A stretch of 10,825 bases of DNA. Source: Deltaproteobacteria bacterium (GTDB lineage: Bacteria; Bdellovibrionota_F; JAHFAK01). Where the stretch lies: contig JAHFAK010000082.1 in NCBI GenBank assembly GCA_023250585.1, forward strand, positions 1 to 10,825, in the 5' to 3' direction. The notes under the pieces are model-generated. The model searched no databases, was not told where the DNA came from, and was given only the letters and a program-made list of their open reading frames with translations. Below are positions 3,471-10,193 of this stretch, one piece after another (the first letter of the stretch is position 1; each line of letters opens with the position of its first letter). The position numbers were made by a program, and so were the translations under genes.

Positions 3471-3508
3471 CCCAAAACCCTCGGCAAAGCCGTGTGCATT
3501 CAAGGCAT
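3471..3508 (+). repeat. Dispersed repeat R3, the most diverged copy
   Basis: This copy aligns without gaps to R1 over 27 nt: CCTCGGCAAAGCCG then TGTGCATTCAAGG, against CTTTGGCAAAACCG then CTCGTATTCAAGG. It lacks the CCAAA/TTTGG palindrome but has CGGC-AAA-GCCG in its place, and the GGCCATC end is lost. In the frame equivalent to AKPLVFK it reads GKAVCIQ and soon meets a stop, with no ATG start, so it does not code. Confidence 0.5.
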
Positions 3509-3549
3509 ATAGTTGACCTTCTCTATCTCTCTGACGATAATGCTCCCGT

Positions 3550-7301: not shown

Positions 7302-7485
7302 GAGAAAAAGATATGCAAATTGTATGCCAATAGTAACAGCCGTCATTGAGAGGCTGATGAATCAGCCGAAGCAAGCTCAAGCACATAGAAAGATTGCTTC
7401 ACTTCGTTCTCATTGACAAATACTAACAACAAAATGTGCGAAAACGGAGACAATTTGTGTGACAGCTCAGTTAATGGGGAGAGTT

Positions 7486-7600
7486 AGGGCGGGTAGGTCT
7501 GTTTACAGAAGTATTCCTATCGACGTCGCTTCCATAATACTATTAAGAACAGGAAAGCGCGTTCGATAGGAATACTTCTGTAAACAGACCTACCCGCCCT
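7486..7600 (+). repeat. Long hairpin element A with conserved core
   Basis: A perfect 38-bp inverted repeat (arms 7486-7523 and 7563-7600) surrounds a 39-nt core (7524-7562). The arms begin AGGGCGGG and end CCTATCGA at the core. The core contains GCTTCCATAATA and TTAAGAACAGGAAAGC and continues the stem through about nine further pairs with three single-base bulges, leaving an AT-rich apical loop. Just outside the arms, CAGTTAATG (7468-7476) and CATAACTG (7601-7608) could add about 8 pairs after a 9-nt one-sided insertion. It lies between divergent genes with no T-tract, so it is not a standard terminator. The core strand is given as +. Element B carries the same core on -. Confidence 0.92.
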
Positions 7601-7629
7601 CATAACTGAAGCATTACCAATTTATGTGT

Positions 7630-7658
7630 TTGAATCTACGCGAGATTTAGTGTATATT
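7630..7658 (+). promoter_or_regulatory. Probable promoter of the Lon-like gene
   Basis: TTGAAT (7630-7635), a 17-nt spacer and TATATT (7653-7658). Transcription would start near 7665, exactly at the chosen ATG, which would make the mRNA leaderless or nearly so. This agrees with the absence of a Shine-Dalgarno sequence. A TATAAT string overlaps the ATG itself (7661-7666) and could be an alternative -10 for a start inside the gene. Confidence 0.45.
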
Positions 7659-7664
7659 TATATA

Positions 7665-10067
7665 ATGAACACTAGAAAACATTGGGAACTCCCCCTTTCT
7701 CATTTATATAACAAAACTGATTTATCAAAACTCAAATTTAAAACAACCGATGAACTTAAAATTTCTGATGAGTTTATTGCTCAAAATAGAGCCATTTCGT
7801 CGCTCAATTTTGGGTTAGATCTTGATTATAAGGGATATAATATCTTTGTGTCGGGAGATGATGGAACGGGTAAGCTGTCAACGGTTCGTACTATCCTTGA
7901 GCACATTGCTCCCATGAAACATACCCCAAATGATTGGTGCTATATTCATAATTTTGATCATCCTGAAAGGCCTATTGCTATCGAACTTCCACGTGGGTCT
8001 GCGAAGGAATTTAAAAAGGATATGCAGGTGTTCGTTGATGGTCTTCTCAAAGAAATTCCCGCAGCTTTTGAAAGCAAAGACTATGAAGATCGCATTAATG
8101 ACATTATGAAATTTTATGGAGATAAGAAGAATAATCTTTTTTCTACCCTTGAGGAAATGGCGAAAGAACATAACTTTGCTATTAAAGTGACAAAAGTTAA
8201 TGTCGTAACCATTCCCATTATTGAGGGGAAACAGATCGATGAACACGAATACGCTAAGCTCGATAAAAACGAAAAAGACCGTATCGAAAAAGAGCGCGAA
8301 AAGATCAATGAAGAAATTGTAAAGTTCTTACGTGAAATTCGCGTTATCGATCGTAAGATGCAAGAGCAGATTGAGTCGGTTCAAAAGCAAGTTGCTCTTA
8401 TGGTTGCTGATGGCTATTTAAATGATCTCGTCGAAAAGTATGAAAAAGAAAAAGAGGTTATTGATTATTTAGCTAAAGTTAAAAATCATGTTCTCGATAA
8501 TTTGAATTTTTTTCTCGGCTTTGAAGATCCAAACGCGAATGCTCGAAAACAGCCACAGCGTAAGAAGACTTTGACTGAATACGAGGTGAATGTTCTTGTC
8601 GATAATACGGATACGTCCGGAGCTCCCATTGTTTTCGAAAACAATCCGACCTATTTCAATGTTTTTGGGAAGCTCGAAAAACGAATCGAATATGGATTTT
8701 ATACCGCTGATTTTTCAATGATTCGCAGTGGAAGTCTTTTGAAAGCCAATGGCGGGTATTTGATTGTGCAGGCAATGGATCTTTTAATGAATTTTCAGGT
8801 GTGGAATCAGTTAAAAAGAGTTTTGAAAAATCGAGAAATTATTCTTGAAGATCCACTTGAAGAGCATGGCTTAATTGCCACAACTGGTTTTAAGCCCGAA
8901 CCAATTCCTCTCAATGTAAAAGTTATTATGGTTGGAAGCGCTGATCTCTACTATCTTCTTTATCATCACGATGAAGATTTTCATAATATCTTTAAGGTCA
9001 AGGCAGACTTTGATTATGAAATGCCAAAATCAAAAGAGTTTATAGAAAAATATGCTTCATTTATTGCGACAAGATGCAAAGAAAATAAACTGAAACATTT
9101 CACCAAAGAAGCGGTCGGAAGAATTATTGAATACAGCTCTCGACTTATTGAAGACCAAAATCGCCTGTCTGCACAGTTTGGAAAAATCAATGATTTAATC
9201 GTTGAAGCCAATTTTTTTGCTAAAAACCAACAGTCAAAATACGTGGATTTGGCATGCGTTGAAAAGGCAATTACCGAAAAAAGGGCACGCGTAAAACTGC
9301 CAGAAGAAAAGATGCTTAAGTATATTCATGAAGGCGATTTAATGATTAATGTAGAGGGTAAAGCGGTTGGGGAGCTTAATGCTTTGAGTGTTTTAAATTA
9401 TGGTGATTTTGAGTTCGGACGTCCTTCAAAAATTACTGCTCGAACGTTTCATGGAAAAAGCGGACTTATTAATATTGAACGAGAATCAAAACTGTCAGGA
9501 AAACTTCACGATAAAGGTGTGCTTATTTTGAATGGTTATTTTGGTTGGAAATATGGACAAAATAAACCGGTAAGCCTTTCTGCAAGTCTCTGTTTTGAAC
9601 AATCCTATGGTATGATTGATGGAGATAGTGCTTCAAGTACGGAATTCTATGCATTGCTCTCATCGCTCTCGGGAGTTCCTATTCAACAATCAATTGCAGT
9701 AACGGGGTCAATGAATCAACGAGGAGAAGTGCAACCGATTGGTGGAGTTAATAGCAAAGTCGAAGGATTCTTTGATGTGTGTAAATTACGGGGATTAGAT
9801 GGCAGCCATGGCGTAATGATTCCAAAGCACAATGTAAAAAATCTTATGTTAAAAGAAGAAGTCGTTGAAGCGGTAAAAAAGAAAAAATTTCATATTTATG
9901 CAGTCGAAACTGTTGATGACGGAATTGAAGTGCTCACTGGTGTTCCAGCAGGAAAAATGAAAAAAGATGGATCGTATCCGGCAAAAAGTATTCACTCGTT
10001 AGTTCAAAAAACACTCGAATCATTTGGAAAAGAGCCTTCAAAAAAAAGAAAGAAAAAATCAAAATAG
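7665..10067 (+). CDS. Lon-like ATP-dependent protease (AAA_32/LonB-type)
   Basis: An 800-aa Lon-family protease with an N-terminal ATPase region and a C-terminal serine-lysine protease domain. ELPLSHLYNKTDLSKLKFKT is the typical start of this family. The P-loop position reads GDDGTGKLS (64-72), with Leu where Thr or Ser normally follows Lys. A long helical, charged insert, probably coiled-coil, spans roughly residues 140-290. GGYLIVQAMDLL and the following NQLKRVLKNREIILED form the second half of the ATPase. The protease domain has the catalytic Ser in GDSASS (S655) and the catalytic Lys in VNSKVEGFF (K698), inside the conserved AVTGSMNQRGEVQPIGG block. The C-terminus is a lysine-rich tail. 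The frame extends to a GTG at 7626, but homology and the promoter favour ATG 7665. It acts in cytoplasmic protein quality control by family inference. It is not the classical LonA architecture, as no LAN substrate-binding domain is seen. Confidence 0.93.
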   Translation: MNTRKHWELPLSHLYNKTDLSKLKFKTTDELKISDEFIAQNRAISSLNFGLDLDYKGYNIFVSGDDGTGKLSTVRTILEHIAPMKHTPNDWCYIHNFDHPERPIAIELPRGSAKEFKKDMQVFVDGLLKEIPAAFESKDYEDRINDIMKFYGDKKNNLFSTLEEMAKEHNFAIKVTKVNVVTIPIIEGKQIDEHEYAKLDKNEKDRIEKEREKINEEIVKFLREIRVIDRKMQEQIESVQKQVALMVADGYLNDLVEKYEKEKEVIDYLAKVKNHVLDNLNFFLGFEDPNANARKQPQRKKTLTEYEVNVLVDNTDTSGAPIVFENNPTYFNVFGKLEKRIEYGFYTADFSMIRSGSLLKANGGYLIVQAMDLLMNFQVWNQLKRVLKNREIILEDPLEEHGLIATTGFKPEPIPLNVKVIMVGSADLYYLLYHHDEDFHNIFKVKADFDYEMPKSKEFIEKYASFIATRCKENKLKHFTKEAVGRIIEYSSRLIEDQNRLSAQFGKINDLIVEANFFAKNQQSKYVDLACVEKAITEKRARVKLPEEKMLKYIHEGDLMINVEGKAVGELNALSVLNYGDFEFGRPSKITARTFHGKSGLINIERESKLSGKLHDKGVLILNGYFGWKYGQNKPVSLSASLCFEQSYGMIDGDSASSTEFYALLSSLSGVPIQQSIAVTGSMNQRGEVQPIGGVNSKVEGFFDVCKLRGLDGSHGVMIPKHNVKNLMLKEEVVEAVKKKKFHIYAVETVDDGIEVLTGVPAGKMKKDGSYPAKSIHSLVQKTLESFGKEPSKKRKKKSK

Positions 10068-10080
10068 TTTTTTTCTAACG

Positions 10081-10193
10081 GCGGGGGAGATATGTCTTCT
10101 TTTTTGTTTTATACTGAGCGTGCTTTCCTGTTCTTAAAATTATTATGGAAGCAACGTCAGTATAAAATAAAAAAGAAGACATATCACCCCCGC
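10081..10193 (-). repeat. Long hairpin element B with conserved core
   Basis: Two 37-nt arms (10081-10117 and 10157-10193) pair at 35 of 37 positions, with one A-A mismatch and one G-T wobble. They surround a 39-nt core (10118-10156). On the - strand the core matches the + strand core of element A at 34 of 39 positions without gaps. The arms start GCGGGGG and end ATACTGA, and apart from the GCGGG base they do not resemble the arms of element A. It begins 14 nt after the Lon stop codon and would form a stem of about 46 bp in a read-through transcript. No U-tract follows, so it is not a standard intrinsic terminator, though it could still block or protect the 3' end. Confidence 0.9.

Follow-up and report, generated by a model that had tools for sequence, protein, structure and literature searches.

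A multicopy family of DNA palindromes with a conserved bulged tip in the genome of a Deltaproteobacteria bacterium

Results

Two hairpins with a common bulged core flank the lonB gene

The stretch of DNA analysed in this work, hereafter the window (10,825 nucleotides), carries two long hairpins, one on each side of lonB. The first (positions 7486-7600) lies between the divergent comM and lonB genes and is composed of a perfect 38-nt left arm (7486-7523, plus strand), a conserved bulged core, or tip, recognised on the plus strand by the covariance model R1 (7524-7562), and a right arm (7563-7600, plus strand), the two arms being complementary at 38 of 38 positions. This hairpin is carried by a MITE-like element of 159 bp (7459-7617, plus strand), assigned to class A, which contains no open reading frame and whose ends read GTAA.../...TTAC. 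Specifically, the left terminal inverted repeat (TIR), GTGACAGCTCAGTTA, maps to 7459-7473 on the plus strand and belongs to the family GTAAYRGCTCAGTTA, while the right one, GTAATGCTTCAGTTA, is read on the minus strand at 7603-7617. The element is enclosed by an 8-bp target-site duplication, CAATTTGT (7451-7458) on the left and CAATTTAT (7618-7625) on the right, identical at 7 of 8 positions, or at 10 of 11 if extended.

The second hairpin (10081-10193, minus strand) lies in the gap between the end of lonB (10067) and the start of the next gene (10273). Its arms (10081-10117 and 10157-10193) are complementary at 35 of 37 positions and enclose a conserved bulged core on the minus strand (10118-10156); having neither TIRs nor a target duplication, this copy is of the naked type, or class B. 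As a preliminary description of this DNA had stated, the two cores are 39 nt each and identical at 34 positions, with the differences at core positions 4, 17, 19, 36 and 39. The bulged fold proposed there was reproduced for both hairpins, as DNA as well as RNA, with stabilities far beyond those of shuffled sequence (z -12 to -17). Three bulges interrupt the core: T26 (model numbering), an additional base on the 3' side, and a single base where the core meets the outer stem. The joint change of core positions 4 and 36 from C-G to T-A, carried by the second hairpin, is also confirmed, and the T-A form recurs in a third copy (C111:6341), the arms of which are different.

The window additionally contains three 47-nt direct repeats (1319-1365, 2558-2604 and 3474-3520; 64-81% identity), which follow or separate gene units containing nucleotidyltransferase genes and are spaced like cassette boundaries. 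These repeats fold no better than shuffled DNA, and a BLAST search of the genome found no further copy of them.

The two hairpins are members of a family with about 78 copies

The window is contig C158 of the source genome, a single 2.24-Mb draft in 164 contigs, 96.7% complete. A BLAST search of this genome located the element at 40 places, and the covariance model R1 at 79 distinct places, one of which is a fragment; the family thus numbers about 78 copies, in support of the earlier proposal of a structured, undescribed, high-copy element. A total of 77 copies were analysed in detail, with automatic class assignment and open reading frame calls, and the bulged core base is kept in 72 of them; the refuting outcomes named in the preliminary description are therefore not observed. 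A typical copy is a palindrome of about 113-119 bp, in which a strictly conserved bulged tip of 38-40 nt is joined to arms of 36-46 nt that are nearly perfectly complementary. In a model-free palindrome scan of a 400-kb sample, non-random in that it included many contigs already known to hold copies, about 24 of the 37 strong palindromes had this core.

Outside the source genome, the covariance model found no copy in 58 other genomes, including one other genome of the same phylum. Likewise, the loop pattern GCTTCCATAATANTNTTAAGAACAG had no exact match in 84,980 GTDB r220 species genomes or in IMG/VR, and blastn of the element against phages and plasmids gave no match, in collections that may omit the source genome. 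The family, one of dispersed non-autonomous DNA palindromes, has to date been seen in this genome alone.

Six long, near-perfect hairpins sharing this architecture (C6:5529, C25:11350, C75:17435, C100:13843, C101:3408 and C163:5943; loci L182-L187) carry a second tip family, CTCAGTGAAGTTTTATAAGAGGAA. The 3' side of the second tip (TAAGA..GGAA.GC) is similar to that of the first.

Class A copies are carried by MITEs

Class A comprises 40 of the 77 copies, embedded in elements of about 157 bp (most of them 156-158 bp) with GTAAYRGCTCAGTTA TIRs at both ends. A target duplication score of at least 7 was obtained for 28 of the 40, compared to 2% of shuffled flanks, and many copies are near-identical. 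By the features tested, class A is therefore a MITE. Ends beginning with 5'-GTAA and 8-bp duplications are features of the IS66 family; nevertheless, an IS66 transposase as the present mobiliser was rejected, because PF03050 is absent from the whole genome. In addition, no autonomous transposon with GTAA ends was recognised in the 0.77 Mb examined, and, of the TIR pairs found 0.4-4 kb apart, those inspected proved to be separate short elements. Class A was presumably spread by a transposase with an IS66-like end preference that has since been lost.

MITE deletion derivatives of only 30-43 bp were also observed (C60:4862, C34:7237 and C27:4783; loci L160, L159 and L152), in which the 8-bp duplications are kept and the hairpin is lost. 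These remnants are apparent deletions of the palindrome centre, and slippage is well known to delete palindrome centres.

Two further observations concern the MITE ends. GTAA-ended MITEs elsewhere in this genome (e.g. C14:27182-27342; loci L142-L149, L154-L156, L190, L193 and L195) have a different cargo, in which a CGTC-REP-like hairpin forms a head-to-head dimer (TGGATCCCGYGGTCAAGCCRCGGGATGACA...TGTCATCCCGCGGCTTGACCGCGGGATCCA); a single set of MITE ends thus carries two unrelated hairpin types. Moreover, a repeat ending in ...TTTTTTCACACCTT (L188:229-349, L197:2833-2952, L180:2872-2992 and L170:13422-13539) is fused to truncated MITE ends (CTCAGTTA...), and one copy of it adjoins a Y1 transposase gene (C13:3042-3410).

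Class B copies are naked hairpins in short intergenic gaps

The remaining 37 of the 77 copies, forming class B, have no terminal repeats, a few assignments being borderline (C70:9221 and C124:137, for example, retain partial ends). None of 32 class B copies reached a target duplication score of 7 (control, 0.6%), and for this reason class B cannot be classified as a MITE. Class B copies occupy short intergenic gaps, many of them leaving only 5-25 nt to the gene on either side, and often lie within housekeeping operons, such as at the atpG|atpD, carA|carB, nuoK|nuoL, tsf|pyrH, hslU|purA and maf|mnmE junctions; others are found at mdh and on the 3' side of lonB. At co-directional gene pairs the strand of the core is unbiased (10:14, p=0.54). 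When the flanks of class B copies were joined and compared with 0.77 Mb of sequence, no empty site was found, some of the flanks being other repeats; the mobility of class B is thus inferred from its dispersion only.

Since the copies are intergenic and strongly folding, they could act as bidirectional intrinsic terminators or simply be generic intergenic hairpins. Among about 31-35 class B copies, however, only 1-2 have convergent neighbours against 8-9 with divergent ones, many copies are internal to operons, and termination needs no such conserved 39-nt tip, all of which makes this explanation very improbable.

Some class B hairpins are directly adjoined by a different repeat, which is also multicopy, measures about 130 bp and has the terminal repeats ATACTAAGTTGCATTCAAA...TTTGAATGCAACTTAGTAT (L167:9614-9730, L172:1008-1120, L175:11582-11697, L179:8722-8834 and others).

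Paired changes in the arms do not require selection on the fold

In an alignment of 41 copies, standard pairs occupy 97.8% of the paired cells, two-sided changes are present at 18 pairs, and the cells changed on both sides outnumber those changed on one side by 170 to 4. Among about 1,830 arm pairs of the ungapped copies, only 3 G-T and 9 A-C mismatches were counted; wobble is therefore not favoured, unlike in RNA evolving through G-U intermediates. In class A, the core points either way with respect to the asymmetric MITE ends in nearly equal numbers (19:17), and the hairpin tree needs at least 15 orientation flips, no fewer than with shuffled labels. One pair of hairpins is identical over the full length and still opposite in orientation. 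Furthermore, four copies have a locally perfected core, in which the right side was copied in one case and the left side in three.

Template switching has been reported to create and maintain hairpins (PMC8794818) and, when it occurs between inverted repeats, to homogenise the arms and invert the spacer (PMC8604942). Homogenisation, inversion and paired changes are thus all accounted for by reported effects of template switching, and for the arms there is no need to invoke selection on the fold. The preliminary description had argued from co-varying stem pairs to selection on the folded form; this argument does not hold as it was made, because the scarcity of one-sided and wobble intermediates, together with the free flipping of the core, is what template switching yields, and paired arm changes are thus insufficient. 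The stronger case for selection is that the tip sequence and its bulges have been retained while the arms have widely diverged.

The same data bear on the possibility of a structured RNA, according to which the hairpins would act in transcripts, as an RNase III site, an mRNA stabiliser or an attenuator, and the covariation would reflect selection on RNA. Many class B copies, lying 5-25 nt from both genes at operon junctions, must indeed be transcribed, and the hairpin is very stable. On the other hand, wobble pairs are not enriched, one-sided intermediates are almost absent, the asymmetric loop has no bias with respect to the direction of transcription (10:14), and no Rfam family was matched at the gathering score; at a relaxed E-value only sub-threshold generic microRNA hairpin models and a few other weak chance matches emerged. 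Taken together, these observations lead us to regard a structured RNA as decidedly unlikely.

The bulged tip is conserved on diverged arms

Comparison of the class B copies revealed a mean identity of 0.88 in the core, 0.75 in the inner arm and 0.63 in the outer arm. The apparent position-wise randomness of the outer arms had prompted the idea that the arms are inverted duplications derived from the target; given the residual homology of the outer arms in a gapped alignment (0.63, against 0.39 for shuffled sequence), this idea is unneeded. Although the arm identity to the nearest neighbour is at most 0.87, in 18 of the 37 class B copies the core is identical to that of another copy, and the conserved tip includes the unpaired loop. 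By a strict test, the bulge is retained in 36 of 37 class B and 37 of 40 class A copies; natural copies with a repaired bulge occur in C58 and C66. The most divergent copy, C44:6431, has the stem CGTGGTT/AACCACG, perfect at the T position; with this copy counted as lost, the T bulge is kept in 72 of 77 copies overall and in 35 of 37 of class B. The 3' bulge is not constant, being A, T or else a small internal loop, yet the irregularity as such persists. Diverged arms with identical cores, and bulges kept despite repeated correction of the arms, imply that the bulged tip is under constraint, although gene conversion between copies could account for part of the core identity within class B.

These results weigh on the view that the copies are neutral relics, that is, a dead MITE family with arms homogenised by template switching and cores alike through recent descent only. 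Such relics would explain the homogenised arms, the free inversion of the core, the few bulge erasures and the deletion derivatives, and the many near-identical class A copies fit as well. They would not be expected, however, to combine class B arms that are at most 87% identical with a 38-40-nt core, unpaired loop included, that is identical in half of the copies, nor a mean identity of 0.88 in the core with 0.63 in the outer arm; bulges, moreover, should have been erased like other mismatches, and 36 of 37 class B copies retain them by the strict test. Neutral relics are, in our judgement, distinctly improbable.

A further possibility is that the hairpins are themselves mobile as single strands, through an HUH (Y1) transposase that would read the bulged tip, as for REP/RAYT and IS200/IS605. 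Consistent with this, the tip is bulged, class B has no target duplication, the genome has four Y1 transposase-like matches, and repair of the bulge abolishes TnpA-REP activity in E. coli, which is a precedent for a DNA hairpin whose bulge is indispensable (PMC8266576). Nevertheless, no hairpin of this kind lies within 1.5 kb of any of the four Y1 genes, a conserved GTAG or comparable guide motif is missing at the hairpin base, and the conserved part is the tip, at a distance of 36 nt from the base, although the base is where enzymes of this type would need to cleave. Self-mobility of this kind is therefore unlikely.

Discussion

The explanation that best accounts for these data, to which we assign a probability of about two in three, is that of dispersed palindromes acting at the DNA level, in which template switching would keep the arms and selection the bulged tip through a putative recognising factor. 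According to this model, the class A hairpin would have been moved within its roughly 157-bp MITE by a now-absent transposase of the IS66-like end type. Arm complementarity would be maintained during replication by DNA template switching or by repair templated on the hairpin, and the same process would also flip the core and remove palindrome centres. The tip and its bulges, in turn, would be kept by selection, with a putative protein, of the host or of a mobile element, reading the tip as a folded single strand or cruciform; this protein may either mobilise class B or serve the host. By analogy, the element may work as a bulged hairpin whose folded DNA form is read.

More tentatively, and rather improbably in its full extent, the family could represent a new class of DNA element, in which interchangeable bulged tips, of at least two types in this one genome, sit on perfect arms that evolve freely and are read by a putative protein as folded single-stranded DNA or cruciform. 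Kept at tens of operon junctions, such elements would serve the host, in chromosome organisation, replication or expression, and not only themselves.

With about 78 copies in one genome, the family makes it possible to tell apart two signals that are usually confounded, namely covariation due to template switching, seen in the arms and in core inversion, and selected covariation or irregularity, seen in the bulged tip. It also cautions that compensatory changes alone are no proof of a selected RNA, and points to a putative factor recognising the bulged hairpin.

Comparison with known systems

The 5'-GTAA ends and 8-bp duplications of class A are like those of the IS66 family, from which the present case differs in that the genome has no IS66 transposase (PF03050). 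Class A resembles MITEs in general in being short, intergenic, without an open reading frame and present in high copy, with TIRs of about 15 bp and 8-bp target duplications. It differs from them in that its body is an almost perfect hairpin, whose conserved bulged tip flips with respect to the ends, and the family as a whole differs in that 37 copies bear the same tip but have neither TIR nor target duplication. An Rfam structured RNA was rejected as well, the matches being below the gathering threshold, with neither wobble tolerance nor strand preference.

The features tested agree with the preliminary description in that the element is not an attC site, an IS200/IS605 end or a REP/RAYT system. 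Integron attC sites similarly combine a variable self-complementary stem with conserved extrahelical bases. Their conserved core sites, however, are at the stem base, which is the least conserved part of our hairpins; here the conserved part is at the loop end, with no R-box pair at the base and no cassette array. The hairpins do not flank Y1 transposase genes, as IS200/IS605 ends would.

CGTC REPs are defined by an unpaired CGTC/TGTC tag, a stem of 8-9 bp, a loop of 4-5 nt and a CCA tail (PMC3733652). Like these elements, which include RPE-4 and RPE-6 of Rickettsia (PMC3733652), the present family is palindromic and has no linked transposase, and in the source genome the class A MITE ends carry a CGTC-REP-like dimer as their other cargo. 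The core structure nevertheless departs from the definition, since the CGTC in the tip is paired in the stem, the loop measures 18-20 nt rather than 4-5, and the CCA tail is lacking.

Finally, REP/BIME elements with RAYT (GTAG REPs) differ in size, REP elements being of 20-40 nt while the arms alone measure 36-46 bp here; in addition, none of the four Y1 matches is flanked by the palindrome, and the GTAG tag is absent from the hairpin base. The two groups are alike, on the other hand, in being high-copy intergenic bulged hairpins, and the retention of the bulge in our family parallels the requirement for the bulge in E. coli REP (PMC8266576).
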